Below are positions 45,787 through 64,000 of a stretch of DNA of 64,000 bases, one piece after another (the stretch's first letter is position 1; the number at the start of each line of letters is the position of its first letter). Below the pieces are notes generated by a model. It had not been told where the DNA came from and made no database searches. It saw nothing but the letters and a program-made list of their open reading frames with translations. A program made the translations under genes and the position numbers. Source of the stretch: Pseudomonadota bacterium (GTDB lineage Bacteria; Desulfobacterota; Binatia; Binatales; Binataceae); NCBI GenBank assembly GCA_021325355.1, contig JAJPHI010000019.1:1-64000 (forward strand), in the 5' to 3' direction.

Positions 45787-48700
45787 TCACGGAAAGCCGA
45801 TCACAACGCCATCCGCCGGAACTGTAAAGCCGATCGAAGTCGGTGAATTGATTGCCACTTTTGTATTCACAATTGCCATCGCCGGCCGGCTTGCCACGCG
45901 ACCGTTCGTGACAGCCATATTCGTTATCGTCTCGATATGGGCAGGTAGTGGCGCCCGAGCATCAGGGAAAGCCAAAGATACAGTAGATGACTCGGCATTC
46001 GAATTAGCAGCGGCGATGTGCCATCCGTCTGATTGCAGAAAAGCGCCGATCGCCACACCGGCGGAACCTCCATTGACCGTGTAGAAATCGCCCCCTATCA
46101 CATGTTGATTCATCAACTTCATGACCGCTGCACTCAGAGAGTTAGCCGAGGCCGAGTTTCCCAAGAACTGGGCGCTTCCCCCAGCCGTCTCCAACGATGC
46201 CGAGGAGATCATTACGCGAACGCCAGCGCCCAAAGCCTCTAAAATTGATTGCACCTGCGACGCAACCGAAAGAGAGCTTCCGATTGCCGCAGGACTATCC
46301 GCGGTAAGGCCGGACGACGGCTCCGGCACGCCATCAACGAATGCAAGCTGTCGCGCGTAGGCCTGAACGTCCGCGACCATCGAGGCGATCGACGATGGAT
46401 CGACTCCGACGCGATTACACTGATTCTCGTCGTTTACGAACAGTGTACTCTCTTGGCAACCCCAGTAGGGCGAAAGTGCAATGTACTCAGCTTCGGACAG
46501 GAGGCCGGCCATACGTCCGGCACCGCTCCCAAACACCGCATCAGTCTGCAACTGCGCGTTGCCGGCGTATTTAAGATTTGCGCCGAGTCCGGCTGCTCTC
46601 CCGATAAGGCCAAACGCGCGATTTGCCCGTGCGGCGTAGGCTGCCACCCCAAAACCGCCGTTTTGCTGAAGGCTCGAGCTACCATAACCGCTCACAGCCT
46701 CGTTACCACCAAATTCCAGCACGACCTCGGGAAACATATATTTGCGTTGCAAGGCGCCGATTTGTTCACCAAGCGCGTTGTATTCAGCGTCACTGAAAGT
46801 CACGGGAATCGAGACCCATGGTTCAGCTCCAACCCGTGAGCTGAGATCGAAGATCTGCTCAAGCGAATATGTGCCGATAAAATTGCTAACTTTCGTTATA
46901 GAGCCTTGCGCCTCCGCCGGATAAACCAGAAAACTCGCGTAGTCATCCCCGCCCGGGCTTTGTCGAGCGCGGATATAACCCGGATGCAGCTCCTTAAGGG
47001 CCGCAACCGCCTCCGCTCGCCAGCCGCCATCGCTCGCGGCTGGACCCAGGTAAGCATCATCGAGGCGAATAACCCCGTCAGTACCGAGGCAACTAATCGA
47101 CAAATCCGCCACCCCGCTCACCTGAGCTTCAGTATCCTCGCGCACGAAAGACACTGCCGTTTGCGTCCAGTCCTGACCAGGCATCCAGGTGTGCGAAAAA
47201 TATGGCGCTTTGCCTATTTGTCGCAGCGTGGCCGTACACGAGGGTTCGGTCGCGTCAACTGATTTGCTGTAAATCGTAAATTTCCATCGCGACTTAACGG
47301 GCAGGCTGCTTACGCCAAAATAGTAATCGAGCTCGTGCGTGTGCCCGTCCAGATTGAGTTGAATACTCTGGCTACCCTGATGATATGGATTCTGGTCTGT
47401 CGACGTGATCCATTGCGGATCATCCTCGAACCACCACATCGCTACCGGGCCGCAGGACGGTTGCTTCGAACATCCCTGGTCGACCGTGGGCAAATCTCCC
47501 GGTGTGTGCGTGACTACAATGTCGCCAGCCTCAACAGGAAAGCCCGCGACATAGTCCCATCGCGGCGCGCCGTTGCTGCATCCCGAGCCCGTCGGATCAT
47601 ACCCGGCAATCTTTCCGCGCGCGCCGATGCCTGCCGAGACTGAGGAATCGACGACTTCGAACGACGCCCCAGCGTAAAAATCCGCGGGAAACAACTGGCC
47701 GCTGTTAGTCTCACAAAAGCTCGACGAACTCGCGTCTGTTACGTCGATAACTCGTTCGTTTACAACTGGCTCGAATCCGGGATTTGCAAGGATGTTGCTC
47801 TGCAACGCCTTAGAGCCAAAAGAAGCCTCGCCGCTAAGATCTATGCCGATCGGCCGAACCGCCGCTGAAACGGGTTGCGACTGTACCGCGGTAAATACCG
47901 ATCCTCCGGCTGCCACTCTGACCGCCGTACCGCTAACCGACACAACTTGCGGGCTGTTTGACGCTGAGTCAGTGATAGTAATCGATCCATTGCGTACTCC
48001 CGGGTGCTGCGGCGCGAAGGTTACCGTTAAGACGCAACTCGAACCAGCCGCAACTGACGGCCCGCAACTGCCAGTCGAAAGACTTAGCGGCGCCTGAATA
48101 GCGACCTGTATATTGGTTACGGCCGCCCTCGACGGGTTGGTTAAAGTGAGGCTTTGTGGCGCACTTTCGCTCCCGACCGTCACTGAACCGAAGTTAAGGC
48201 TCGTCGGACTGACCTGCAATACCACGGGATCCGGTGTGGGCGTGGCCGTCGCGGTCGCGGTCACTGTCGGCGTAGACGTCGGCGTAGCCGATCGAGTGGG
48301 TGTCGGCGTTGGGCTTCCCGAGCTGGTAAGCAAAGCAACCGTACCCAACGCCGGTATGGTGAAAGTCCCAGTCTGGCCGTTGTAACTCACCCCGCCGCTC
48401 AGGCTGCCGATCGACAAACTTGCGGAATTCTCGTTGTTATCGGCCATACCGTTCGTATAGTTGACCGTATCCGCGATAGTCGGAACATTCGCACCACTGG
48501 GAAACGCGACGCTCACGGCGGTCGGCGTAGTGTTCGTGTTTACGCAGGCTAGCTGATAGTTGTTGGTCGAACTGTGCGCAAAGGCCGCGCAGTATACGCC
48601 CGAAGGCAGACCGGTTACGGCGTGATAATCTCCGTTTTGGTCGGAATCCACAACTACAGCCTTGTTGTAAAGCTCCAGTCCCAAGCCCTGGCCGTTAAGC

Positions 48701-50937
48701 CACGGCCAGACTGGAGCGAAGTTTTCGTCCGTACCGGAATATGCTGCGGTCGCGCTGAAGCGGAATACGCCCGCGTTGTTCGGCTGGTTCAGTTGAAACA
48801 GATGTTGGGCAACCCACGCTTGCGCCGGAGGCGGGACGGTAAGACCCAAAATAAAGGTTTGCATCGCGATACTCGCGCCGCCCCATCCTGCGTTAACCTC
48901 GGAGCTCAACGTCTTGGCGTCCTGTGAGGCATTTTGCGAGGAAAACTCATAGCCGCCAAAAATTCGATTGCACGGACTCAGGGCCGCCGTCTGCGTACTG
49001 TTCTCGCATAATTGTCCCAGGTCGTTCCATCGATTGCCGGCGGCGAACGGACCCGCGAAGTTACCGCTATAATTCGCGTTCATGGTATTTGAAATCGCGT
49101 TCGCGATCGTGTCGCCGGCCAAGTCAGTCGCGGAGCTTGGATAAGGCGCCTCGGAGAATCCATACTGGCTGCTATTAGGCATCGATGCGAACCCGGCATA
49201 GACACCCGCCATCACGCCACTATTGCCTATCTGTTCATTAAGAAAGTATTTGATACGGGAATCCGAGCAGGCTGCCGAAATCAGCGCGAAAGCCCGCCCA
49301 CACGCCATGCCGTAGGCTGGTTCGGTTGCGTCTGCAGTGTCGAAAGGACCGCCGCCACCGTTCCAGTTTTCATTGTTGCATTCGACGGACATCTGCGGAA
49401 AATTGTACGTCGTTTCCCAACTACAGAGCTGATTGCCGAACGCCGTATATTCAGCATCGGTCCATCCCATAGGTATCGTCATCCAGGTATTCGTCGTCGA
49501 GCTGATGGCACGCGCCAGCGTCACCAGATCGGCGAACGAATACTCCTCGTTGTAGACTATTCCCTGGCTGATCCAGCCGCCTTCAGGTGGCATCTGGTAG
49601 CGGTTCGAACTGAGCTGTACCGACTCGCTCAGTGCAGGATTCCGTGATTGAATATTAAACGTATCCGCGGCCCGTACGTCGCCAACATTCATTGCCTGCA
49701 ATTCGCTGATAACCGCCGAGGTGAAGGCTGTAGTGGGATTCGATTGCCCCAGGTACATGTCGTCTACATAGATCACGCCGCCGTTGCAGGTGAAATTGAA
49801 GTTCATCACTGCAGGCTTAGTGGCCGAGGTGTCGGTCCCGGTGAAGTTATACGTGTACTGATGCCACTTGCCGTCGCTGGTCAACGACGTTGAATGGCTG
49901 AAGTAGCTGTTGGCCGTGCTCCCACGATAGAAATTACCCGTACACGTTGCGCCTGAGGACGACGTGTTCGCATAGAAGCTGAAGGTCCAGTTTCCTGTCA
50001 CTGGATGTTGAAGCGCGGGGACTCCACCTGAACAGGTGTCGCCCGAAGGGCAATCGTTGTTGGTCGTACAGATATCTGCCGGATGCGATACGCACGTGTT
50101 CGGCGTGTTACCTGTAGTTACGTTGTCCCATAACTGGCTGATTGTCTGTGCCGACGTAGCGTTGTTAAACTCGAGGGCACTTTTGCCATCGTAAACCGTG
50201 GTGTTTTCGATGCTTATCGTGGGATATCCAGGGCCCCACCCCGCGTAGGTGGCGAAATTGCTGCCCGTAACCGGTACAGTCTGGACGCAACTGACGATAT
50301 CTGCGTTGTTGGCTCCCGAAACGATAGAATTCGGGGCAGGCGCGGCTAAGGTCGGGCAGGCTCCTGAGCAACTGAAGGTGTCGCCATTCGGCCCGGAGGT
50401 CGAGCCGCTCAGAGTGAATGTTGTTCCGGCGTTGCAGTCGGCGACGCCACCGGCGCAACCGCCATTGGCAACCGAGGCGCCCGAGGTCGGGCTGTAGCAA
50501 AAGTTGTTGGATCCGTCCGAGCAGGTCCCAACGCGGACAGTACACGTGGCTCCTGCCCATGCGTTCGAACCATCGCCGCTGTCCTGCTCGGATGTGATGA
50601 CACTTGCAGTTCCGGATTTTACCGTTATATTTTGGCCGAATACCGGCTGCTCAAAGCCTGGATTGGCGAAAATGTTGGATGCTATCGCGGTTCCCCAGTA
50701 CACCTCGCCACTGACGTCTATTCCAGCGCGCGGAGCGTTGGCCACCGACACGCTGCCAGACACCGTCGCGGCCCCGAAGGCAGTCGGGATCGAAGCGAAG
50801 AAAAACGTCAGGAGAATCAGTCCGAGAATCGCTTCCTGAAAGCGACTACAGTTGGCCAAGCTGAGACATTTCTGCAAAGAACTACTTGAAGACTGTGCGG
50901 TTGGCTGTAGTTCACCGAAGACTTGTCCGTAGTTCAC
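45787..50937 (-). CDS. Giant secreted protein with duplicated glycosidase-like modules
   Basis: About 1716 aa. A signal helix (EAILGLILLTFFFASIPTAFG) is followed by module 1 (residues about 45-870), a Thr/Pro linker (PTPTPTRSATPTSTP, about 872-903), a choice-of-anchor-D/ASPM-SPD-2-Hydin Ig-like domain (LQVSPTSLNFGSVTVG, to about 1005) and module 2 (to the end). Both modules start GID[V/L]SGE and SNI[F/L]ANPGFE and carry a barrel-like segment: AEYTAFGNQL then VECNNENWN (about 520), and AEYNALGEQIGAL then EFGGNEAV (about 1411). They resemble GH51-like arabinofuranosidase barrels with an NE acid/base. Two GTG starts exist (50943, 50937); the second has the better-spaced GGGGAG. No sorting signal ends it. 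Confidence 0.75.
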   Translation of the reverse strand: MNYGQVFGELQPTAQSSSSSLQKCLSLANCSRFQEAILGLILLTFFFASIPTAFGAATVSGSVSVANAPRAGIDVSGEVYWGTAIASNIFANPGFEQPVFGQNITVKSGTASVITSEQDSGDGSNAWAGATCTVRVGTCSDGSNNFCYSPTSGASVANGGCAGGVADCNAGTTFTLSGSTSGPNGDTFSCSGACPTLAAPAPNSIVSGANNADIVSCVQTVPVTGSNFATYAGWGPGYPTISIENTTVYDGKSALEFNNATSAQTISQLWDNVTTGNTPNTCVSHPADICTTNNDCPSGDTCSGGVPALQHPVTGNWTFSFYANTSSSGATCTGNFYRGSTANSYFSHSTSLTSDGKWHQYTYNFTGTDTSATKPAVMNFNFTCNGGVIYVDDMYLGQSNPTTAFTSAVISELQAMNVGDVRAADTFNIQSRNPALSESVQLSSNRYQMPPEGGWISQGIVYNEEYSFADLVTLARAISSTTNTWMTIPMGWTDAEYTAFGNQLCSWETTYNFPQMSVECNNENWNGGGGPFDTADATEPAYGMACGRAFALISAACSDSRIKYFLNEQIGNSGVMAGVYAGFASMPNSSQYGFSEAPYPSSATDLAGDTIANAISNTMNANYSGNFAGPFAAGNRWNDLGQLCENSTQTAALSPCNRIFGGYEFSSQNASQDAKTLSSEVNAGWGGASIAMQTFILGLTVPPPAQAWVAQHLFQLNQPNNAGVFRFSATAAYSGTDENFAPVWPWLNGQGLGLELYNKAVVVDSDQNGDYHAVTGLPSGVYCAAFAHSSTNNYQLACVNTNTTPTAVSVAFPSGANVPTIADTVNYTNGMADNNENSASLSIGSLSGGVSYNGQTGTFTIPALGTVALLTSSGSPTPTPTRSATPTSTPTVTATATATPTPDPVVLQVSPTSLNFGSVTVGSESAPQSLTLTNPSRAAVTNIQVAIQAPLSLSTGSCGPSVAAGSSCVLTVTFAPQHPGVRNGSITITDSASNSPQVVSVSGTAVRVAAGGSVFTAVQSQPVSAAVRPIGIDLSGEASFGSKALQSNILANPGFEPVVNERVIDVTDASSSSFCETNSGQLFPADFYAGASFEVVDSSVSAGIGARGKIAGYDPTGSGCSNGAPRWDYVAGFPVEAGDIVVTHTPGDLPTVDQGCSKQPSCGPVAMWWFEDDPQWITSTDQNPYHQGSQSIQLNLDGHTHELDYYFGVSSLPVKSRWKFTIYSKSVDATEPSCTATLRQIGKAPYFSHTWMPGQDWTQTAVSFVREDTEAQVSGVADLSISCLGTDGVIRLDDAYLGPAASDGGWRAEAVAALKELHPGYIRARQSPGGDDYASFLVYPAEAQGSITKVSNFIGTYSLEQIFDLSSRVGAEPWVSIPVTFSDAEYNALGEQIGALQRKYMFPEVVLEFGGNEAVSGYGSSSLQQNGGFGVAAYAARANRAFGLIGRAAGLGANLKYAGNAQLQTDAVFGSGAGRMAGLLSEAEYIALSPYWGCQESTLFVNDENQCNRVGVDPSSIASMVADVQAYARQLAFVDGVPEPSSGLTADSPAAIGSSLSVASQVQSILEALGAGVRVMISSASLETAGGSAQFLGNSASANSLSAAVMKLMNQHVIGGDFYTVNGGSAGVAIGAFLQSDGWHIAAANSNAESSTVSLAFPDARAPLPAHIETITNMAVTNGRVASRPAMAIVNTKVAINSPTSIGFTVPADGVVIGFP

Positions 50938-50943
50938 GGTCAC

Positions 50944-52708: not shown

Positions 52709-54088
52709 TCAGACCAGCACTCGCCCAAAGGCCAGTTGACCAACGCCTTGCGGTTCCGATGCTTCGAGCTTTGCGCCCTCGACTTCGCGATGCTGCAGCA
52801 AGGACGCACTCCATCCTGTCAAGATAAAGAACAACCCCATGATCGTTTCGTTGGAGGTAAGTGCACCCTCCGTGTTGCAGAGCGCCATAGCTAAATATAC
52901 GGCCGCTATCGTGAATGCGGTCGCAGCAGTCGGATGGTCGCGCGGCAACCGAATGCCTAAAAGACAGAGCCGTAGCGGAGCTAACAATAAGATCGCCGCC
53001 CAAGTGGCGAGAGCGTACGTCCCGTAAACCAGCGCCGTGTACAGGTAACCGTTGTCGATCGACAGCATGTTTTCCTGAACCGGAAAATCGAATCCCCAAC
53101 CCCATCCCGGGCGTTCTTCGATAATCGGAATGTAGACTCTCACCAGTTCACTTCGGTAGGCCGCATCGGAGCGGTCCTTATCACCCGAAAGCTCCGTCGC
53201 AAGCCAGTCCACGGAGGTGTACGCTTTCCATGCTGAATGAACGGGCGCGGCTACAAATACCAGCGTTAAAAGCAATAGAGCGATCGCTAACCTGCGATTC
53301 TTCGCTCTACAGATAGACGTCATGACTGCCGCCGCCGCCGCGCCGATCCAATCTCCATAAGAGATTGACATGATCAAGCCGCCCAGGATCCACCAGGTGC
53401 AGAACCGAATTTTAGTTATCGGCAAGCGCCACAGTTTCTCCTTCCAGACCCCTCTCCATCCCAACCCACGAACGATTATATAACCGATGGCCATAATGAC
53501 GCCCAGCGCCATTGGATGACCGAAAGGGCCTTTAATTCGCATAAAACCGTAGCGGAACAAATAATTTATGCCGGGTATGGCGGGAAAGATTCCATTAAAA
53601 GGCCACAAAAACAAATCGCGGCCCAACCGGAATTCGTATACTGATAAAATCGCCACTGCGGTAAGCAAAACCGCAATACGCTTCATGAGCTGAACAGCGA
53701 ATTCGTCGCGGCTCAAGCTCTGCTTTGCTATAAAATATGGCAAAAAGAAACCGCAGAGCTCGCGAATCGCGATCTGTTGCGTCTGCTTGTACTCGTAACC
53801 GTTGTTGATGCAGGAGGATATAACTGTAAGACCTATATACGCCAAAACAAGGATATCGAAACCGCACCATTTCCACCGAAACTGGGGAGAGAAGAGTACG
53901 AACGGTGCTATCGCGAGCAATGTTACGTCGACGACCGTCAGTTGCAGCGACAATGGCCAACTGTAGTCGGGCATGAGTAGCAGCGCTGGCAGGTATACGT
54001 CGAGGATTGCCCTTTCGGGGCCGCTGAGGACGCATACGACGACCGCTACTAAAGCGGGGAAAGCGACGAAAATGGTCTGCGTCAGCAT
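52709..54088 (-). CDS. O-antigen ligase family membrane protein
   Basis: 459-aa protein with about 10-12 hydrophobic helices. The long periplasmic loop near residues 300-360 carries RPGWGWGFDFPVQENMLSID then NGYLYTALVYGTYAL, matching the GxGxG...N/H-x-Y-L pattern of Wzy_C/WaaL ligases and polymerases. With Wzm/Wzt immediately upstream it would ligate exported polysaccharide to lipid A-core, though a polymerase role is also possible. It ends the polysaccharide operon, 19 bp after wzt. Confidence 0.85.
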   Translation of the reverse strand: MLTQTIFVAFPALVAVVVCVLSGPERAILDVYLPALLLMPDYSWPLSLQLTVVDVTLLAIAPFVLFSPQFRWKWCGFDILVLAYIGLTVISSCINNGYEYKQTQQIAIRELCGFFLPYFIAKQSLSRDEFAVQLMKRIAVLLTAVAILSVYEFRLGRDLFLWPFNGIFPAIPGINYLFRYGFMRIKGPFGHPMALGVIMAIGYIIVRGLGWRGVWKEKLWRLPITKIRFCTWWILGGLIMSISYGDWIGAAAAAVMTSICRAKNRRLAIALLLLTLVFVAAPVHSAWKAYTSVDWLATELSGDKDRSDAAYRSELVRVYIPIIEERPGWGWGFDFPVQENMLSIDNGYLYTALVYGTYALATWAAILLLAPLRLCLLGIRLPRDHPTAATAFTIAAVYLAMALCNTEGALTSNETIMGLFFILTGWSASLLQHREVEGAKLEASEPQGVGQLAFGRVLV

Positions 54089-54107: not shown

Positions 54108-55322
54108 TCAGACCATCTTCCATGTGGCGTGATTCCAAAAGGCCCCCCTACTGCCACCAAACGAGTGGCCATCTTTAACAACAAGCGGAAAGTGGGTCTC
54201 TGCCAGCACCTCTTCTGTTTCACGATCCGAGCATATTCCGACCCAAATGTCATAGTCGCCATCGTTGAGCATGAGCCGAGGCACGACGCCTTCGCAGGAA
54301 AGCCGCCGCGACGCGGGAACCTCGAATCGCTGACTGTACAGCGTGAAGTAAACGAAACCGTCGGGACTGGTCGCCCGGACAAAAGCCCGGACGCACGGGT
54401 GCGACGGAATATCCGCGACAACGTTCAACCTAATCCCCGATTCGGGAGTTGCTTCGCGCTCCGAGGCCCAGTTTCCGAACGGCGTCAACTCGGCCAGCCG
54501 CAGATCGACCTGAGCGTCCGACGCGCTGCCATTGGTATCCTTAGCAGTACCCTCCTGAACTCCCCGACGGTAGTGATCGATGATGACCTGCGGCTTTCCC
54601 TCGGCCGCCACGCGTCCGCGCTCCAGTAAGATTCCACGCGTGCAAACCGTCTGAATAAGCCACATATGGTGGCTGACGAGAACGATCGTCATGCCGCGTT
54701 CATTTAATTCGCGCATCTTGTCGGTCGACTTCTGGTAAAAGCGCGTGTCGCCCACTGCTAGCACTTCGTCGACCAATAAGATTTCAGGCTCGAGATGTGC
54801 GGCGACGGCGAACGCCAGACGCACATACATCCCGCTGGAGTAGCGTTTAACGGGCGTATCGATGAATTTCTCGACCTCGGCGAACGCGACAATTTCGTCA
54901 AATTTACGGCTGATCTCGCTCCGCCGCATCCCGAGAATCGCGCCGTTCAGAAAGATATTCTCGCGCCCGCTAAGCTCGGGATGAAAACCGGTGCCTACTT
55001 CGAGCAGACTGCGGACTCGACCATATAGCTCGACCCGGCCGGCGGTGGGCCGCGTGATTCGCGAAAGGATCTTCAAAACCGTCGATTTGCCCGCGCCGTT
55101 CGAGCCGATGATGCCGAGGATCTCGCCGCGTGCAACCTCGAAGCTCACATTGTCCAGCGCCCAGAAGTAATTTGGATCCTCGGCGGAATCTCTTCGCTCC
55201 TGCCCGCCCGACCGAGCGCGATGGAACCTTGAAACGATACTCTCCCGAAGGGTCTGATAACCCTGGCTGCCGCCGACGCGATAGCGTTTCCTCAGACCGT
55301 TGACCGTGATCGAAGTTTCCAT
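54108..55322 (-). CDS. wzt: Polysaccharide ABC transporter ATPase with C-terminal sugar-binding domain (Wzt-like)
   Basis: 404 aa. ATPase domain: Walker A GIIGSNGAGKSTVLK, signature-like YSSGMYVRLAFAVA, Walker B EILLVDEVLAVGD, followed by the His switch in VLVSHHMWLIQ. Residues about 250-404 form a beta-sandwich of the Wzt C-terminal type, which recognises the terminal modification of the polymer before export (VRAFVRATSPDGFVYFTLYS). It starts 5 bp after the permease gene. The C-domain implies that chain length is set by a capping group. Confidence 0.93.
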   Translation of the reverse strand: METSITVNGLRKRYRVGGSQGYQTLRESIVSRFHRARSGGQERRDSAEDPNYFWALDNVSFEVARGEILGIIGSNGAGKSTVLKILSRITRPTAGRVELYGRVRSLLEVGTGFHPELSGRENIFLNGAILGMRRSEISRKFDEIVAFAEVEKFIDTPVKRYSSGMYVRLAFAVAAHLEPEILLVDEVLAVGDTRFYQKSTDKMRELNERGMTIVLVSHHMWLIQTVCTRGILLERGRVAAEGKPQVIIDHYRRGVQEGTAKDTNGSASDAQVDLRLAELTPFGNWASEREATPESGIRLNVVADIPSHPCVRAFVRATSPDGFVYFTLYSQRFEVPASRRLSCEGVVPRLMLNDGDYDIWVGICSDRETEEVLAETHFPLVVKDGHSFGGSRGAFWNHATWKMV

Positions 55323-55327
55323 TGCCT

Positions 55328-56284
55328 TCAGATGATGTCGGCGAAGTCGTCTTCCATCCGACGGAACACATAAGTGGAGGCCACGAGCAAAAGACAGATC
55401 ATCAGGATCGACACCGCCAGACCAATAAAATCGAACGGCCGACCGAAAATTGCGCTGCGAAATCCCTCGATAATACCGCTAAGCGGATTCAGACGAAGCA
55501 GCCAGCGCCAACGCGTCGGCAGAAACGTCACTGGATAGATAACCGGCGTCAAAAACATCAGCATTTGGATGGCAAAGGGCAGCGCATACCGGATGTCTCG
55601 ATATTTTACGTTGAGTGCCGCCGTCCAGATCGCAATCGCAGCCGCAGTCAGGGCCGTAAGTGCGGAAAGCGGAATCAGCAGCAATAGGCTTAGATGATAT
55701 GACACGCCACAGATGGGCATCATAACCAATAGAATAACCGCGGCGATACTCATATCCAGCAAGGCGGCACCCAATGCCGCCGTCGGCACCAGAATGCGCG
55801 GGAAATATACCTTCGTAATGAGATTGCTCGTCGAAACAAGGCTATTGGATCCAAAGGTGACTGCCGTTGCGAAGAAGTTCCAGGGCAATAACCCGGCATA
55901 CGAGAAGATCGCATACGGCTCGCCTTCGGACGGTACGCGAGCAAGTCTACCGAACAGAAAGGTGAACACTACCATACCGAACAGCGGTTGCAGTACGGCC
56001 CACGCGGCACCGAGTATCGTCTGTTTGTAACGAACCTTGATATCGCGCCAGACGAGAATATAAAAAAGGTCGCGATGCGCCCAAAGATTATCCAGCTCGA
56101 GACCGGTGCGTCGGCCGGCCTCGATAATCAAGCTGGGCCCTTTGGCCGCCGAAGCCCTGGAATGACCACGCGGATCGCGGTTGCGCGGCTGGTCCTTCGC
56201 GCTGACGTCAGTCTCGTTGGGGGGAAGCGCCAGAGAGTTCGCTTCGGATTCTCGCTTCAGCTCCACAGGAGCGGTGACTATCAA
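55328..56284 (-). CDS. wzm: Polysaccharide ABC transporter permease (Wzm-like)
   Basis: 318-aa ABC-2-type permease with about six helices after a hydrophilic N-terminal extension of about 50 residues. WRDIKVRYKQTILGAAWAVL and YAGLLPWNFFATAV are typical of O-antigen/teichoic acid exporters. RFPRILVPTA-like and VKYRDIRYALPFAIQMLMF segments complete the pattern. Partner of the Wzt ATPase. There is a 130-bp gap to the upstream GT2 gene. Confidence 0.93.
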   Translation of the reverse strand: MIVTAPVELKRESEANSLALPPNETDVSAKDQPRNRDPRGHSRASAAKGPSLIIEAGRRTGLELDNLWAHRDLFYILVWRDIKVRYKQTILGAAWAVLQPLFGMVVFTFLFGRLARVPSEGEPYAIFSYAGLLPWNFFATAVTFGSNSLVSTSNLITKVYFPRILVPTAALGAALLDMSIAAVILLVMMPICGVSYHLSLLLLIPLSALTALTAAAIAIWTAALNVKYRDIRYALPFAIQMLMFLTPVIYPVTFLPTRWRWLLRLNPLSGIIEGFRSAIFGRPFDFIGLAVSILMICLLLVASTYVFRRMEDDFADII

Positions 56285-56414: not shown

Positions 56415-57470
56415 TTAAGAGTTGAGCGGCGGAGCCACGAGACGCAGATGCCTTCTCCTGTGCTCTTTCCTGCTTACTCGCGGCCAGAGGGCGCTATAGC
56501 GTATGAGATCGCGAACGTAGCCGGGGATATGACGATCCCGACGGCGCTGCACAGCCAGGCGCAGAAAACCCAATCCAAAAGCCAGGATTGCGGCGGCGTC
56601 GACCGCGATCGCGTACCCCAGGCCATGGTTGGCGATGAAATACCAGCGACGAGACTCGAACCAGTAGCCCGGGAGCCGCTTCAAAGGTTGATCGCGTTCC
56701 GTGACTTTCGTGCTTTGCCCCGCAATATGCATGACTCGGCTCTCGGGCACATACCAGGTGGCGAAGCCCATCTTCTTCGCACGGAGGCAGAAATCGGTTT
56801 CTTCGAAATAAAGGAAGAAATTTTCGTCGAGTCCACCGAGAGCATCAAAGACCGTGCGGCGAACCATCATCGACGCTCCGGACACCCAATCGATCGCTTG
56901 CTGCGCCGAGCCCATGTCAACAGCGATCACCGATCGACGCAAAAGCCGCGTCACGAGTCCGAATTGCAGGCCGGCCGCCACTTCGCTCAGGATCGACGGG
57001 AAGCGAAACGCGAAGGGCCAGGGTGTGCCGTCGGGATGCTCGAAGCTGCTGCCCGCGATGCCGACGCCTGGGTTCGACTCCAGAAACTGCACCAGCGCCG
57101 TTATTGAACCGGGTCGCAGAATTGTATCCGGGTTGAGAAGATACAAATAGTCCGGCAAGAGCTGCTGGCGCATATGTCGATAGCCGAGATTATTGCCGTA
57201 GGCGAAACCGCCGTTGCGTGGCGCGGCGATCACGCTCGCCCACGAAGACCAGGAGTTTGTCCGGATCGCCTCCGCGATAAGCGCCGTATCCCCTGAAGCA
57301 TTATCAACTATAACAACTTTGATCTGAATGCCGGGCGCGCAGTGCACGCGCTCGGTCGCAATCGACTGCAAACAGTCCACCGCCAGCGGAGCGGATTTGT
57401 AGGTTACGATAATGATCCCCACGACGATCGGGCTGGAGCCGGTTCGCGAGGCTTCAAGCGTAGCCGTCAT
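56415..57470 (-). CDS. Glycosyltransferase family 2 (rhamnosyltransferase-like)
   Basis: 351-aa GT-A glycosyltransferase. VGIIIVTYKSAPLAVDCLQS begins the nucleotide-binding domain. YLYLLNPDTILRPGS has the DxD-type metal site. ASMMVRRTVFDALGGLDENF and FFLYFEETDFCLRAKKMG give the catalytic-base region. A C-terminal amphipathic/hydrophobic part suggests membrane association. Resembles WcaA/RfbN-type rhamnosyltransferases. Start overlaps the FkbH-type gene stop (ATGA). Confidence 0.9.
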   Translation of the reverse strand: MTATLEASRTGSSPIVVGIIIVTYKSAPLAVDCLQSIATERVHCAPGIQIKVVIVDNASGDTALIAEAIRTNSWSSWASVIAAPRNGGFAYGNNLGYRHMRQQLLPDYLYLLNPDTILRPGSITALVQFLESNPGVGIAGSSFEHPDGTPWPFAFRFPSILSEVAAGLQFGLVTRLLRRSVIAVDMGSAQQAIDWVSGASMMVRRTVFDALGGLDENFFLYFEETDFCLRAKKMGFATWYVPESRVMHIAGQSTKVTERDQPLKRLPGYWFESRRWYFIANHGLGYAIAVDAAAILAFGLGFLRLAVQRRRDRHIPGYVRDLIRYSALWPRVSRKEHRRRHLRLVAPPLNS

Positions 57471-60445
57471 CGGTCCGTTTCTCGCAGATATGGAATAATC
57501 GCTGACGCCAGAGAGTCGACATATTCTTCATGCAGCATCGATGAGTGCCCGCCGGCGACATCGACTACTCTGATGCTGGGAGCAACTGTCTCCCAGCCCA
57601 AGGCCTCGTCAGTGTAAATCTCGCGAAAGGGCGTGTCGTCAGCTTCGCCCCGAGTGGCACGCGCCAGCAGCACAGACGAAGACGTTAGGGTTGCTGGGGT
57701 ATAGTTCAGTTCAGCCAAATTGTAGATTTGACGGACCGTCAGCCCGGGCATCCAGCCTGGCCAAGGACGATTGTCTTTCAATCGTTTGGCTAAGAGGTAA
57801 AAGCGGATACGGGCGGAAAGAGCCTCAGCGCGCTGAATGATTTCCCACCGAATACTGTTAGCGGCTTTCTGGGCCAGCACTCGGATTACCGCGAGCGTTT
57901 TGGCCGATTTCGAGCCGTCCTGTTCAGTAATTATCGCCCGTCGAAGTCGTGCGATCCGTTGATGGCGCCATGACTGTTTACGCGCGCCGGGCCTGGCGGC
58001 ATCGAGCAGCGCCACCAAGCCGACCGCTTGGCCGCTGCTAACGAGTCTTGCAGCAATCTCATACGCAATCACGCCTCCGGCGCACATTCCCCCGAGGAAG
58101 TAGGGCCCTTCGGGCTGCTTTTTTTGAATCTGGCCCAGATAGAATGCGGCCATGTCCGCGATCGTCGTGTGAGCAAGCGGCACGCCTGGCCGTTCGGGCG
58201 GTAGCACGCCAATTACCGAGACCTCCTGCGGCATCCGCCTGGCCAGATTCATATAGAGCAGCGTTTCACCGTCGCCGTCGTGAATGAGAAAGAGATTGCG
58301 GGACCCGCCGCGCTTCAGCTCAACCAGGGTTTCGGTGCGTTGCGGCCGAGGATGATCAATGCGCAGGGCCAGTTCGCGCACCGTGGGAGCTTCAAGAACC
58401 ATCGTCAGTGGCAGCATCGCACCGAAGCGTCGAGAGATCTCCGCGATCAGCCTGACTGAAAGCAGGGAATTGCCGCCGATCTCGAAATAATTGTCCTCCA
58501 CTCCAAGGCCTTTAACGTGCAGCAGGTCCTCCCATAGAGCGAGCAGGCGGCGCTCCGTGTCGTTTGCCGGCGGCACGGGTGGACGCGGTGAAATTCGCGC
58601 TCTCGGCTGGACTCGCTCCGACAGCTCAAGCACCGCTTCGCCCGTGGTCAGCACGCGCGCCAGTTTTTCGTACCGTTGCCATCGCGGGATTCCCACAGCT
58701 CCATTATGCGCGCCCACCGGCTTTCCTTCGGTCGGCTTGCCTTTCAGAACAGGCGCCCGATCGGGTCGAAACGCGACCTCGCACGCCCTTTCAGTAGGAA
58801 GTGCATAGAAGCATCGATCCCGTCTCGTGCAGCGAAATTCCGCCGCCACGCTCTCGAGAAAGACGCGTGCCGGTTCGTTCTTCGCTGTGGCGATATAGGG
58901 CAGATCGATTCGGCAAAGTCCTTTCTGCGAGGCTAACTCGCCGAGCTTGCGCAACATCGCATGCTCGACGCCGCGACCGAGAACCCGACAGCTCAGAAGG
59001 AAAGTATCCACGACGAGGGCGCCCAGGAATTCGTGGGCGATAATCACGCCGACGATTCCATAATCGCCAAAGCGATCGCGAACCTGAACGCGCAGGACTG
59101 TATCTCCCTGGCTTGCGCGCCTGCGCACTTCGTCCTCACGATAGCGTCTGGTGGTGAAATTGAACTGATTCGTTCGCACAGTGAGCTGCGCCACCCGCTC
59201 CCACTCGTCAGCGCAGGGAGGTGCGACGTCGATCTTCAGGTCAAGCGAGGCAATGAACGCGAGCATATCCGCGCTCGACTCCTCGAGCTCGCGACGCGCG
59301 GCATTTTCGCGATACATCCTGGTGCGGCGCAGATCCTCTTCGGTGACCGTGAGCTTGTCGAACGCCCAGAGATTCCGCAGAAACTCCTCGATCCCATCGT
59401 CATGCGGAAGCTGTAAGGTGAGCACCTCCGGCAACGTCGCGCGAACCTCGGCGCATTCGATCGGGTTATCGTCGATAAACACGAAGGCGTCGAGGCCGAG
59501 GTTCAAGGCTTCGGCCAGCGCCGCGAGATTACGCGGCTTCGATTCCCAGTTAATCCGATGGGCTACGATATGAGAGGTTTGCAGGATCATATCGGAGCGC
59601 TGTCGGAACACGTCCAGCACGTCAGACTCGGCGTTTTTGCTGACCAGACAGATGAGAACGCCTTGCGCCTGCTTCTCAACCGCAAACCGTTGAAGACAAG
59701 CCCGACCCGGTGATACGGAAAGGCCTTGAACACCGTCTTCGGCGACCACCCCGCTCCATAACGTCTGATCGCAATCGAGCGCCAGAACCTTATACGGAGA
59801 TAAGCGCAAAGCGTGGACGCGCCTTGCGAGCGCAAGGGCGATCGCCGCGTACTGCTCTTCGCTGAATGGGACGTGGCCCAGGCGATCCGCCAGCGCATCA
59901 TAAGAGTCTTCGGCGAGCTTTTCGATTGAGAGCAGGCTGATTCCCGGACATCCGGCGATCTTCTCAGCGAGCGCCGAGGATGCCTCCACGCTGGCTCGGT
60001 ACAACGGCTCGGCCAAATCCGGCGAGGGTGGTAGCGTTGCAAGAACCGTCGGGATTGCGGTGCGTCGCGAATACTGCGCGAGCGCATCGGCGAGCTCGTC
60101 AGCGGTCTTGGCGAGGTGCCGACGGGCCTCCCGCGAGTCCTGGATATCTCGTACGAAATCCTCGAGTCGTACGAGTACTATCCCGACACCGTCGGTATTC
60201 GTCGCCATCGCGCTGTTCGGCGACAACAGCTCTTGAAATACCTGCCCATAGGGAGCGCAGCGGATTGCGAAGGCAAGCCCGGCTTCCTTGAGCACCAGTT
60301 CCAGATATGGCAGCAGCGGCTCCGCGGTAAACGTCGCCGCGACCACGATCGCCGGTAAGGCGGTCTCCGCTTCGGGGGCCGACGATTCTAATCGCTCTCT
60401 GACATCGCTGTCGGCTATCGCCAGTTTTGCGGAGCTAGCTTCCAT
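57467..60445 (-). CDS. FkbH-like HAD-IIIC / acyl carrier / thioesterase fusion
   Basis: 992 aa, three units. Residues about 1-200: SGNH-like N-terminus. About 220-370: HAD-IIIC domain (VLALDCDQTLWSGVVAEDG, LVSKNAESDVLDVF, FIDDNPIECAEVRA), then a GNAT-like part (to about 560). FkbH-type enzymes load a glyceryl group from 1,3-bisphosphoglycerate onto a carrier. About 620-700: carrier domain with phosphopantetheine Ser in FEIGGNSLLSVRLI. About 715-992: thioesterase with GGMCAGGVIAYE (Cys near residue 788 where Ser is usual), Asp in LLDAARPG and His in VAGGHSSML. It sits in a polysaccharide operon, so glycerate decoration of the polymer is a reasonable inference. Confidence 0.88.
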   Translation of the reverse strand: MEASSAKLAIADSDVRERLESSAPEAETALPAIVVAATFTAEPLLPYLELVLKEAGLAFAIRCAPYGQVFQELLSPNSAMATNTDGVGIVLVRLEDFVRDIQDSREARRHLAKTADELADALAQYSRRTAIPTVLATLPPSPDLAEPLYRASVEASSALAEKIAGCPGISLLSIEKLAEDSYDALADRLGHVPFSEEQYAAIALALARRVHALRLSPYKVLALDCDQTLWSGVVAEDGVQGLSVSPGRACLQRFAVEKQAQGVLICLVSKNAESDVLDVFRQRSDMILQTSHIVAHRINWESKPRNLAALAEALNLGLDAFVFIDDNPIECAEVRATLPEVLTLQLPHDDGIEEFLRNLWAFDKLTVTEEDLRRTRMYRENAARRELEESSADMLAFIASLDLKIDVAPPCADEWERVAQLTVRTNQFNFTTRRYREDEVRRRASQGDTVLRVQVRDRFGDYGIVGVIIAHEFLGALVVDTFLLSCRVLGRGVEHAMLRKLGELASQKGLCRIDLPYIATAKNEPARVFLESVAAEFRCTRRDRCFYALPTERACEVAFRPDRAPVLKGKPTEGKPVGAHNGAVGIPRWQRYEKLARVLTTGEAVLELSERVQPRARISPRPPVPPANDTERRLLALWEDLLHVKGLGVEDNYFEIGGNSLLSVRLIAEISRRFGAMLPLTMVLEAPTVRELALRIDHPRPQRTETLVELKRGGSRNLFLIHDGDGETLLYMNLARRMPQEVSVIGVLPPERPGVPLAHTTIADMAAFYLGQIQKKQPEGPYFLGGMCAGGVIAYEIAARLVSSGQAVGLVALLDAARPGARKQSWRHQRIARLRRAIITEQDGSKSAKTLAVIRVLAQKAANSIRWEIIQRAEALSARIRFYLLAKRLKDNRPWPGWMPGLTVRQIYNLAELNYTPATLTSSSVLLARATRGEADDTPFREIYTDEALGWETVAPSIRVVDVAGGHSSMLHEEYVDSLASAIIPYLRETDR

Positions 60446-61160: not shown

Positions 61161-62180
61161 TCATTTGTATTCGATCAGCTCCGTCGTCCGGCCGCTCGCG
61201 AGATTTCTGAAGTATTGGATCTGCCCGATCAGTGTCGGTATCTGCACCAGATGCGAATGCAGGCCGTGCAGTAACCGCGTCGGATAATCGGCACGCTTCC
61301 ACCGGGTTCTCGCGGCCGTGCGAAGCGACAGTGCAGCGACAATTCCGCACGCGACAACCACAGGCATCGTCGATCCGGTAAAAATCGCAAGCACACTCGC
61401 GACGACGAGCAGGACGATCATGAAAGTGCCCTTCAGACGATTGAGCCGGGTCTGTCGATGCCATCCCGGCAGGTGCTCGGGTTTCGATTTGCTCGAAACC
61501 TCGGCATAAGCGTGACCGCTTCGCACCGCCCGTCGCCAGTATTGGTTGAAATGGGTGATCGCCAGATCGTGACTGACCATCGTGCGATCAAGGCAGACGA
61601 TCTTATAGCCCGCCGCGCGGATGCGAGCGCATAATTCCGCATCCTCGCCGGCAATTAGCCGCTCATTATAGCCACCCACCGACTCGAGCACGGCGCGTCG
61701 TATGAAAGCGTCGCCGCCGCAGAATTCCGCTTCTCCGGGATGGATGATCCAGTCCAGATCGAGCACCCGATTATATAGCGACGCCTCGGGATGAAGTTCG
61801 CGGCGATAGCCGAACACCACTCCGACCCGCGGATCATTCAGTTCACGGAGCGCGTAGGGAACAAATTCGGGCGCCAGGATAGTATCACCGTCGAGAAACA
61901 GCACGATCGGTCCGCGCGCCGCGCGCCATCCCGCATTACGCCCGATCGCCGCGCAAGGTCGTTCAGGGTCGACAATTATAACCTTCGCCCCATGGCCTTG
62001 CGCCAATTCAACACTATTGTCGGTCGAGGCCGAGTCTACATAGATCAACTCGATCGCGGCATCCGGCAGATGGATCGCGCCGACCGAGGTGAAACATCGC
62101 GCCAGGCGAGCGCCCTCATTCCGGCCGATCACAACGACTGAAAGCTGCGGCTGCTCGCTGCTCGTTTGGCGATCGCTCAT
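61161..62180 (-). CDS. Glycosyltransferase family 2 with C-terminal membrane helices
   Basis: 339 aa. LSVVVIGRNEGARLARCFTS starts the GT-A domain. IELIYVDSASTDNSVELAQG, IVLFLDGDTILAPEFVPYAL (DxD) and FCGGDAFIRRAVLESVGGYNE with GEDAELCARIRAAGYKI are all typical. One or two hydrophobic helices (FMIVLLVVASVLAIFTG) near residues 255-295 anchor it. The donor is unknown. It follows the Wzz/kinase-like gene by 210 bp on the same strand. Confidence 0.92.
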   Translation of the reverse strand: MSDRQTSSEQPQLSVVVIGRNEGARLARCFTSVGAIHLPDAAIELIYVDSASTDNSVELAQGHGAKVIIVDPERPCAAIGRNAGWRAARGPIVLFLDGDTILAPEFVPYALRELNDPRVGVVFGYRRELHPEASLYNRVLDLDWIIHPGEAEFCGGDAFIRRAVLESVGGYNERLIAGEDAELCARIRAAGYKIVCLDRTMVSHDLAITHFNQYWRRAVRSGHAYAEVSSKSKPEHLPGWHRQTRLNRLKGTFMIVLLVVASVLAIFTGSTMPVVVACGIVAALSLRTAARTRWKRADYPTRLLHGLHSHLVQIPTLIGQIQYFRNLASGRTTELIEYK

Positions 62181-62390: not shown

Positions 62391-64000
62391 CTACCCGACG
62401 GTCTCCGGTTTGAGGTCGACTCTGGTCACGCGCGCGGCAGAGGTCGCAAACACGCCGGCAATGGTCGGTTCGACTCGCGCGGCAGCCACCGGCACTGGCG
62501 AAGTCTCGGCGACCGCGGCGGCATCGACTCGGTGCTGGCGGACAACGATCCCGATGACCGGCGGCGACAGTCGGCTGAGCTCCCGCATGGTCGCGGCGAT
62601 CTCGGGTAAACGGTCGCGTCCGGCAGCAATTGCCAGCACCACGCCCGCCGGATGCTGAATAAGCATCGCCGCATCCGCCGATTTCAGTACCGGCGGCGCA
62701 TCCAACAGCACGAGATCGTGCGTGTTCAGAACGAGATCGAGAGCGTCGCGGACGCAGGACGTCAGCAGACGATCATTCCGCTGATGCGCGCAGATCGCCA
62801 TACGGTCGGGCAGCTCCGCTGACGCCTTCCTGATCGCATGGACACAGGTATCAGCCAGGGCGCCGCGATGAGCTGTGTCGGATTCTTCGATTGCCGTTGA
62901 AGTACCCTCAGCCACGGCCTGCTGCAAGCGCTTCCTGCCTGACAAGAAGGCGGGCGAGTTCGGCTCCGCGTAACGAATATCGGGAGCTTCCGCGTTTGCT
63001 TCGACCGCGACCGCCGAGGCGCCCAGTTCCGTAAGCTCCCTCGAGAGCGCGAGAGTGAGCGAAGTGGTGCCCGCCCGTTCACCGACCGCGGTAACCACGA
63101 AGACCCGGGTCCCCGCCTGTCGCCGCTCCCGGATAATTCCCAGCGCGATACGGCGTAATGCGTCGCGATCGGAACGATCACCGAAACCGGTACTCCCCAG
63201 CACCGGGAGTTTGAAGACACTCTCGATTTCGAGCGCCGACTTGACCGTAGGATCGGTCAGATCGAGCAGGCAGGGGACGGCAATTCCGGCTATCAGCACC
63301 CCTAAACAGGTGAGCAGCACCAGAAACTTCTGCGGCTTGCCGACCATCGGCGCGTCCGGCTCCAGTGCCGGCAGTTCAAGGCTCGCGACTCCGGGCGAGC
63401 GGCTCTGCACCCGCATCACGTCAACGCGATCGTCGATCTCGCCAAGTTCCTTGAGGTGGTTTTCGTATTCATCATGAATCGCCAGCGCTTGATTGTATTT
63501 CGCGCCGAAGGAGGCCGCGCTCTGCTTCAGCGATGCGACCTCCTGCTGAATTCCCGCGAGCGCGCGTTGCGCCTGATCCACCTGAGTCTGCGCACTCGCA
63601 ATTTTCTGATGCAGGTCGGCGGTGTGCGATGCCTGCAGGATGGTGCGGGCCTGGCGCAAGGCGTCGCCATAGATACCGCGCGTCTCCGCATCGATATCGG
63701 CGATCTTCTGCTCGAGCGCCGGACGCCCGGGATGCGACTGCGAAAGCCCCTGAAGCTGTAAAAAGACGTCCTCGCGCTCTTTCTTCAACTCGGTCTCCTG
63801 CGCGCTCAAGTCCGGATCGTTGAGCAGCAGTTTCTGCGCGAGCGAGTTAAGATCGGCTTCGCTGGGAGCGGCGGAATCCGCCTGCAGCGCCGCCAGTCGC
63901 GACTGATCTTCGATCAAATCCCGTTGTTGGCGTTCCAGCGCCACGTTCGCATTGGCCAGCTTCAGATCATAGGGGTTGCTCGCGGGACCGCTGAACGTCG
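62391..64000 (-). CDS. Wzz/BY-kinase-like chain-length protein (N-terminus beyond window)
   Basis: At least 536 aa; the frame continues past the right edge. The visible part begins with long coiled coils (KKEREDVFLQLQGLSQ, TRGIYGDALRQARTIL), then a Pro-rich segment and membrane helix (FLVLLTCLGVLIAGIAVPCLL). A cytoplasmic ParA/BY-kinase-like domain follows. The Walker A site reads TAVGERAGTTSLTLAL and lacks the lysine of GEGKS/T; the Walker A' region is VEANAEAPD rather than DADLRRP; Walker B VLLDAPPVL is intact. No C-terminal tyrosine cluster is seen. It is probably a polysaccharide co-polymerase with an inactive or altered nucleotide site, regulating chain length or export. Confidence 0.85.
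   Translation of the reverse strand, partial: TFSGPASNPYDLKLANANVALERQQRDLIEDQSRLAALQADSAAPSEADLNSLAQKLLLNDPDLSAQETELKKEREDVFLQLQGLSQSHPGRPALEQKIADIDAETRGIYGDALRQARTILQASHTADLHQKIASAQTQVDQAQRALAGIQQEVASLKQSAASFGAKYNQALAIHDEYENHLKELGEIDDRVDVMRVQSRSPGVASLELPALEPDAPMVGKPQKFLVLLTCLGVLIAGIAVPCLLDLTDPTVKSALEIESVFKLPVLGSTGFGDRSDRDALRRIALGIIRERRQAGTRVFVVTAVGERAGTTSLTLALSRELTELGASAVAVEANAEAPDIRYAEPNSPAFLSGRKRLQQAVAEGTSTAIEESDTAHRGALADTCVHAIRKASAELPDRMAICAHQRNDRLLTSCVRDALDLVLNTHDLVLLDAPPVLKSADAAMLIQHPAGVVLAIAAGRDRLPEIAATMRELSRLSPPVIGIVVRQHRVDAAAVAETSPVPVAAARVEPTIAGVFATSAARVTRVDLKPETVG

Follow-up and report, generated by a model that had tools for sequence, protein, structure and literature searches.

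A candidate acyl-transfer cassette in bacterial polysaccharide operons: an FkbH–carrier–thioesterase fusion with a cysteine nucleophile and its glycosyltransferase partner

Introduction

Why does a bacterial polysaccharide operon encode a protein that combines an FkbH domain, a carrier domain and a thioesterase (TE)? The question arises from a window of 64,000 nucleotides (bases 1–64,000 of the 277-kb contig JAJPHI010000019.1; Binataceae, assembly GCA_021325355.1), in which such a fusion lies among glycosyltransferase and ABC transporter genes. Neighbors beyond the window edge were read from the same contig. Polysaccharides carrying glycerate are known, and to our knowledge the route by which the glyceryl group arrives is unclear for most of them. 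FkbH proteins have been described as loading glyceryl from 1,3-bisphosphoglycerate onto a carrier for methoxymalonyl-ACP and tetronate synthesis, as in FK520 and tetromadurin (PMC7489565), and one FkbH domain is already known from a glycan locus, cj1302 of the Campylobacter flagellar glycosylation locus (PMC7099621). Here, we describe the fusion, its relatives and their gene neighborhoods, and weigh what it may do. On balance, we lean towards the fusion and the adjoining glycosyltransferase GT2b forming a carrier-protein acyl-transfer cassette, which would move D-glyceryl onto a sugar as a glycan decoration.

Results and Discussion

Anatomy of the fusion protein

The fusion and its domains are located as follows:

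57467..60445, minus strand: FkbH–carrier–TE fusion of 992 aa, a single uninterrupted open reading frame (ORF)
58835..59791, minus strand: FkbH domain (residues 219–537), with the HAD motifs DCDQT, S, K and DD and an LSCRVLGRG motif (TIGR01686, 298.6 bits)
58364..58552, minus strand: phosphopantetheine carrier domain (residues 632–694), with its serine in GGNSLL (PP-binding, 54.3 bits)
57470..58342, minus strand: TE domain (residues 702–992), with Cys788 in GMCAG, Asp815 and His967 (PF00975 match from residue 717, 81.6 bits)

A first-pass annotation of this DNA, which gave no strand, had described a single protein with loading, carrier and release domains and with GMCAG in place of GxSxG. Both descriptions were borne out, the former by one minus-strand ORF with three profile matches and the latter by the cysteine at residue 788. 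The FkbH domain belongs to its family by score (curated cut-off 146.65 bits) and by the presence of the HAD motif residues, and the TE belongs to the type I family by its profile match (PF00975 cut-off 26.4 bits), its nucleophile elbow and its Asp and His residues. All 12 fusion proteins aligned, a set apart from the cyanobacterial cassettes described below, retain the HAD motif residues and the serine of the carrier; at the sequence level, this speaks against the inactive HAD domain that the annotation had named as a possible objection. Profile scans detected neither a condensation (C) nor an adenylation (A) domain in the fusion, and no condensation domain follows the carrier.

The polysaccharide operon around the fusion

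The genes flanking the fusion are the following:

62391..63944, minus strand: C-terminal portion of a chain-length/BY-kinase protein resembling Wzc (all profile matches weak)
61161..62180, minus strand: GT2a, a family-2 glycosyltransferase (GT2; profile match)
56415..57470, minus strand: GT2b, a family-2 glycosyltransferase in ATGA overlap with the fusion (profile match)
55328..56284, minus strand: Wzm-like ABC permease (profile match, ABC2_membrane)
54108..55322, minus strand: Wzt-like ATPase with a C-terminal domain of ~150 aa (profile match, ABC_tran)
52709..54088, minus strand: Wzy_C protein, O-antigen ligase/polymerase-like (35.6 bits)

Along the minus strand, the order is thus Wzc-like gene, GT2a, fusion, GT2b, Wzm, Wzt and Wzy_C, with the full Wzc-like ORF (759 aa) running past the window edge. 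The stop codon of the fusion and the start codon of GT2b share the sequence ATGA, and the transporter genes lie downstream on the same strand; the first-pass annotation had already described coupling to a glycosyltransferase, followed by Wzm/Wzt. With Wzm, Wzt and glycosyltransferases together, the locus has the composition of an ABC-transporter-dependent polysaccharide operon. It does not have that of a tetronate or methoxymalonyl operon: Pfam scans of 30 proteins from the locus and its surroundings matched no FabH-like protein and no pair of 3-hydroxyacyl dehydrogenase and methyltransferase.

Within this setting, the following course of events can be proposed. By the chemistry of its family, the FkbH domain would take D-glyceryl phosphate from 1,3-bisphosphoglycerate, remove the phosphate and load glyceryl onto the phosphopantetheine of the carrier. 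Because the Cys-Asp-His triad is conserved, the TE cysteine is then predicted to take over the glyceryl group as an acyl-enzyme, which would be resolved not by water but by a hydroxyl or amine on a sugar of a lipid-linked glycan to whose assembly GT2b contributes. The operon context suggests that the decorated polymer would be exported by Wzm/Wzt. Both glyceryl as the group and transfer rather than hydrolysis are compatible with the data.

The domain order recurs in planctomycete polysaccharide loci

A full-length homologue of the fusion (46% identity over 97%) is encoded on a plasmid of Aquisphaera giovannonii, where the annotated order is glycosyltransferase family 2, fusion, glycosyltransferase, epimerase/dehydratase, ABC permease and ABC ATPase. 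The two glycosyltransferases flanking it are matched by GT2a and GT2b of the window with 38–41% identity, GT2a being 38–40% identical to the one that follows the fusion. When the Aquisphaera TE was used as query, the TE subfamily was found in 11 of 397 genomes of one Planctomycete class (that of G530, a Planctomycetaceae record), Aquisphaera included. These loci, like the cyanobacterial ones discussed below, were selected by the TE and not by their neighbors; per genome, the best five or six candidates were scored, and members may be missing.

Wzm and Wzt are present at eight of the 11 planctomycete loci and GT2s at six of those eight, while the contigs of two loci without the transporter genes (L132 and L138) end too early. 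L136 and L137 reproduce the order of the window, GT2a–fusion–GT2b–Wzm–Wzt, with one additional ORF before GT2b, and a GT2b homologue occurs at seven of the 11 loci. The contig of L140 carries only the TE end, so that its FkbH domain is unseen, although it is tallied as FkbH type among the 53 TEs described below. A search for the same domain order in other Wzm/Wzt operons had been proposed by the first-pass annotation, and its outcome supports the suggested role in glycan synthesis. By marker search, NRPS (nonribosomal peptide synthetase) A or C domains were found at none of the 11 loci; the converse possibility, that homologues always lie in polyketide or nonribosomal clusters, is contradicted by this result.

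For comparison, we collected 58 other relatives of the fusion from a scan of genome contigs (L019–L076), in which FkbH domains embedded in long multidomain ORFs account for many of the better matches. These control loci were picked for their resemblance to the query, with a bias towards NRPSs, and they cover at most 10 kb per side, some much less. None of them contains Wzm, Wzt or these GT2s above the single-sequence marker thresholds (Wzm 50, Wzt 100, GT2 80 and NRPS 60 bits), with which distant genes can be missed; weak Wzt-like matches below threshold exist among them. The same markers detected NRPS domains at 15 of the 58. By the markers used, only one is a free-standing FkbH–carrier–TE protein, the lone gene of the cyanobacterium Vasconcelosia minhoensis, so that one control, L019, is itself a fusion of separate origin.

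The thioesterase subfamily and the origin of the fusion

Among 53 aligned TEs of the subfamily, the cysteine and the histidine are present in all; 48 have Asp after strand 6 and the other five have Glu there, and a second Asp (DD/DE motif) is found in 49. The figure for the cysteine is biased towards this residue, because all profile seeds carry it and the GMCAG/GLCAG motif served to locate the TEs of the 11 planctomycete loci; the cysteine is, however, also seen in an alignment of fusion proteins made without the motif. The structural model of the fusion TE (mean pLDDT 73) has a fold that matches known TEs, with AB3403 as the first match by sequence and by fold and the Pks13 TE next by fold. 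Its sequence would suit a hydrolase as well as a transferase.

A tree built from 74 FkbH domains joins 11 fusions of the family, although weakly (support 86/42), and places their branch within a clade (100/100) of FkbH domains that belong to NRPS-type ORFs and to further very long ORFs, which may include polyketide synthases. The window protein is closest to L141 (96/97), and the Vasconcelosia fusion stands apart. Correspondingly, the TE subfamily (98/99) includes the terminal TE of a Symploca NRPS. Since both domains thus stand among NRPS-type relatives, a loading unit of the NRPS type has probably moved from assembly lines into glycan operons, where it would serve glycan synthesis.

A nonribosomal gene cluster and a second thioesterase beyond the window edge

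The contig continues past the window with genes of related chemistry:

L005:6361-16005, on contig C17 directly beyond the window: an NRPS, a second TE (TE2), an amino acid:[carrier protein] (aa:CP) ligase, an acyl-CoA-dehydrogenase-like gene and a small carrier protein, beside Wza- and Wzc-like genes

The Wza-like gene, the NRPS, TE2, the ligase, the dehydrogenase-like gene and a sugar-phosphate transferase are on the same strand as the fusion, and the small carrier protein and a phosphopantetheinyl transferase (PPTase) are on the opposite one. The NRPS is of the type AL-PCP-C-A-PCP-TE (AL, acyl ligase; PCP, peptidyl carrier protein). Its first adenylating domain, A1, is nearest to oxalate-CoA ligases among solved structures, and the specificity positions of A2, placed by eye following the Stachelhaus scheme, read DVWHISLVDK, presumably a serine code.

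This cluster raises the alternative that the fusion belongs to the NRPS, supplying or releasing glycerate for a nonribosomal small molecule, with the polysaccharide genes as mere neighbors. The presence of the NRPS, PPTase, ligase and TE2 within ~20 kb on the same contig agrees with this idea, as does the placement of its FkbH and TE domains in the trees. The fusion is, however, embedded between GT2a and GT2b, Wzm and Wzt, it overlaps GT2b, and it has no C or A domain of its own; an NRPS adjoins it here but at none of the planctomycete loci. We therefore regard an assembly-line role as quite unlikely.

TE2 itself bears on what the fusion TE may do. It is a 362-aa TE with a GMCAG motif, 51% identical to the TE of the fusion (TE1), and the two are sisters in the TE tree (100/99). 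It begins 3 nt after the aa:CP ligase, which matches NF005479 at 398.9 bits. In aa:CP ligase operons, an uncharacterized protein has been predicted to ligate the amino acid to a surface sugar (PMC2922099); judging from loci L064 and L069, we infer that this protein is DUF1839. The role of the ligases has been stated to be unknown (PMC9437257). The typical operon comprises ligase, carrier protein, dehydrogenase and DUF1839, of which the first three are present here. DUF1839 was not found in this genome (95% complete), nor in two further genomes with the ligase, G017 and G029; among the nine genomes tested, it is present in two, both gammaproteobacterial. TE2 thus seems to be paired with the ligase in place of DUF1839, and an aminoacyl group may be added in a parallel way. 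As these operons contain a predicted sugar ligase and TE2 adjoins the ligase here, the arrangement argues for transfer by the fusion TE.

Further aa:CP ligase loci were seen during this comparison. Two gammaproteobacterial loci have the ligase and DUF1839 near an FkbH gene: L069:9344-20175, which also contains a carrier, a dehydrogenase, a glycoside-hydrolase-2-like gene and an acyltransferase, and L064:1-11119, which also contains a glycosyltransferase and a MaoC/SDR protein. At L083:603-9426 (G017), dehydrogenase-like and ligase genes adjoin a type I polyketide synthase with a C-terminal TE.

Cyanobacterial cassettes with exchangeable loading domains

The same TE subfamily is present in 39 of 388 genomes of one cyanobacterial class (that of G529, the Vasconcelosia record); the counts given here rest on the best 40 of 52 matches. 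Ten of these 40 have the FkbH–carrier–TE architecture. At all eight FkbH loci with more than 1200 nt downstream, a GT2b lies within 100 nt downstream of the cassette and scores 326–359 bits to the GT2b of the window; L171 is a ninth FkbH locus that shows GT2b, and the sequence of L164 stops too early to show it. The remaining 30 have a different loader in front of the constant PCP–TE part, namely an A domain, a C domain or an acyl ligase. Among the non-FkbH cassettes with room for the gene, GT2b is found within 400 nt at 13 of 28 and within 4 kb at 15 of 28.

The adenylation domains give a hint of the groups that are loaded. Asp235 holds the amino group of amino-acid substrates, and it is missing in 16 of 27 adenylation domains of the related cassettes: the first or only such domain in 16 of the 24 A-domain proteins has the code SIFHSGICMK (13 proteins) or SIFHFGLSLK (3 proteins). 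As a code without this aspartate makes a non-amino acid substrate likely under that rule, these domains probably load non-amino acids. GT2b lies within 4 kb at 12 of these 16 proteins; of the four without it, one lacks the space. As a side observation, an HPPD-like dioxygenase gene adjoins the cassette at L174 (3467-6970) and L185 (4371-11216), the two of these 16 whose neighbors were scanned.

These data would fit a modular type of glycan acylation, in which a constant carrier and Cys-TE, often with a cognate GT2b, are combined with pluggable loaders (FkbH for glyceryl, A without Asp235, acyl ligase or C) and place small acyl groups onto sugars. It would extend over cyanobacteria, Planctomycetes and the window's own lineage, where it would also be coupled to an aminoacyl-tRNA-synthetase-like ligase. 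We put this generalization forward tentatively, at a little below an even chance.

The pairing with GT2b can also be read the other way round. GT2b might glycosylate a hydroxyl of the carrier-bound glyceryl group, and the TE would release or pass on the glycosyl-glyceryl product, yielding a glycosyl-glycerate building block, a glycolipid or a small glycoside, with no ester on the finished sugar. Cassettes at L166 and L170, which by eye lie among apparently unrelated genes (one neighbor was scanned), are more easily accommodated in this way, and so are the adenylation domains without Asp235. The location of the fusion inside a polysaccharide operon in the window, together with the planctomycete loci that combine Wzm/Wzt with GT2s, argues against it, and we consider this scheme unlikely.

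Several observations weigh against glycan acylation by the fusion and GT2b. The glyceryl group, its transfer and its acceptor are all assigned indirectly. GT2b is lacking within 4 kb at 13 of the 28 non-FkbH cassettes with room, and no GT2b above 200 bits was found at four of the 11 planctomycete loci. L141, the nearest relative of the window fusion in the trees, has no Wzm/Wzt in 60 kb, and the separate Vasconcelosia fusion has neither glycan nor NRPS markers nearby. The genes around L166 and L170 do not appear glycan-related, the scanned L170 neighbor being a sensor kinase, so that a lipid or small molecule may serve as acceptor there. Likewise, the proximity of the NRPS in this genome leaves some weight on a small-molecule role. 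Finally, the gene after the aa:CP ligase of G029 encodes a glycosyltransferase instead of a TE, and the argument from TE2 as a replacement of DUF1839 therefore rests on one genome.

The C-terminal domain of Wzt

The first-pass annotation had gone further and proposed that the glyceryl group caps the polymer and is recognized by the Wzt C-domain. Capped O antigens that are recognized by a Wzt domain are established (PMC9445017), and Wzm/Wzt operons surround the fusion in the window and in planctomycetes, so that a chain-terminating cap at the non-reducing end would have a precedent. The comparison of the C-domains did not support such recognition. Against a profile of eight planctomycete Wzt C-domains, which includes L135 although it is divergent by eye, the window domain scored −2.1 bits and five control Wzts scored 5.5 to 13.9; a sixth control, L111, has no C-domain and was dropped. 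By sequence, the window domain is thus unrelated to the planctomycete ones, and its role as a shared reader of glyceryl was rejected for the window.

Searches of solved structures in the PDB gave no cap-binding relative of the window domain (one chance match, E 1.7) and no match at E ≤ 1 for a profile of seven planctomycete C-domains. The window Wzt had no Wzt_C match at E ≤ 0.001, and the AlphaFold2 model of its C-domain (~150 aa) is beta-rich with a pLDDT of only 48. In addition, genes resembling Wza, Wzc and Wzy_C hint at a possible second route. Overall, we consider a Wzt-recognized cap very improbable.

Comparison with known systems

The fusion shares its FkbH domain and HAD motifs with the methoxymalonyl-ACP and tetronate systems, but differs from those of FK520 and tetromadurin in that the carrier and the TE are part of the same chain and that glycan genes surround it, with no FabH-like or polyketide gene among the scanned neighbors. 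FkbH loading domains of NRPSs, which provide the glyceric acid starter of cyanobacterial peptides, are its nearest FkbH relatives by tree and have the same FkbH–carrier order. In contrast to them, the fusion has no following condensation domain, ends in a TE and is partnered by a glycosyltransferase.

TE domains with a cysteine nucleophile have been described (PMC11298585). The fusion TE resembles those of AB3403, ObiF1 and SulM in its type I fold and its cysteine, but these close rings or are uncharacterized and sit in NRPS modules; the subfamily of the fusion TE mostly keeps the Asp after strand 6 and the second Asp. Scored against curated models, the carrier and TE of the fusion match Pks13 at 74.6 bits, after EntF at 88.5 bits, and TE2 matches Pks13 first at 75.8 bits, all below cut-off. 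Pks13 differs in being a polyketide synthase that handles a very long acyl chain and uses a Ser nucleophile. Its TE is described as transferring the acyl chain to trehalose. Compared with the aa:CP ligase–CP–dehydrogenase–DUF1839 operons, the first three components are also found upstream here, and a paralogue of the fusion TE adjoins the ligase.

In the open-access literature, a scope that leaves out most subscription journals, we found no report of the fusion or of a loader–carrier–TE–GT2 cassette, and a modular glycan-acylation system is apparently undescribed so far. If it exists, carrier chemistry of the NRPS type would be linked to glycan synthesis by a few swappable parts, and gene markers would become available for predicting acyl decorations from genomes. 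The coupling with TE2 would give the aminoacyl-tRNA-synthetase-like ligase a role, making the role of aa:CP ligases testable in a defined operon. Because relatives stand next to sugar-transferring enzymes in bacteria that are not related to each other, surface glycans may be decorated by a route that has drawn little attention.

Distribution and further observations

The match table for 96 genomes of the window's own lineage, this one included, lists no other full-length fusion. The full-length TE subfamily was found among 148 genomes of the class in this genome alone (twice), plus a C-terminal remnant in G029, and among a sample of 395 genomes of the phylum again in this genome alone; the other matching genomes, eight in the class and six in the phylum sample, have about half of the TE domain at most. 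None of 369 genomes of the class Gammaproteobacteria yielded the subfamily in a search that had no positive control and carries little weight. Four phage records gave partial matches only.

In G029, L084:2039-3767 carries fragments of a fusion homologue. Pieces of FkbH and TE are present, much of FkbH, carrier and TE is absent, and a GT2b homologue (454 bits) lies alongside; we take the fragments for either a remnant or an assembly error. This genome encodes homologues of the NRPS and of the aa:CP ligase on other contigs (L086 and L085, respectively). Beyond the PPTase on the contig of the window, L006:4292-10632 encodes in a row a 2-oxoglutarate–Fe(II) oxygenase, a divergent acyl ligase, a Cys/Met pyridoxal phosphate (PLP) enzyme, a homoserine O-succinyltransferase-like protein and a PLP decarboxylase. 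At the other end, the polysaccharide operon is adjoined by a gene for a 1718-aa protein with an ASH/HYDIN-type immunoglobulin-like domain (window positions 45787-50943, minus strand).

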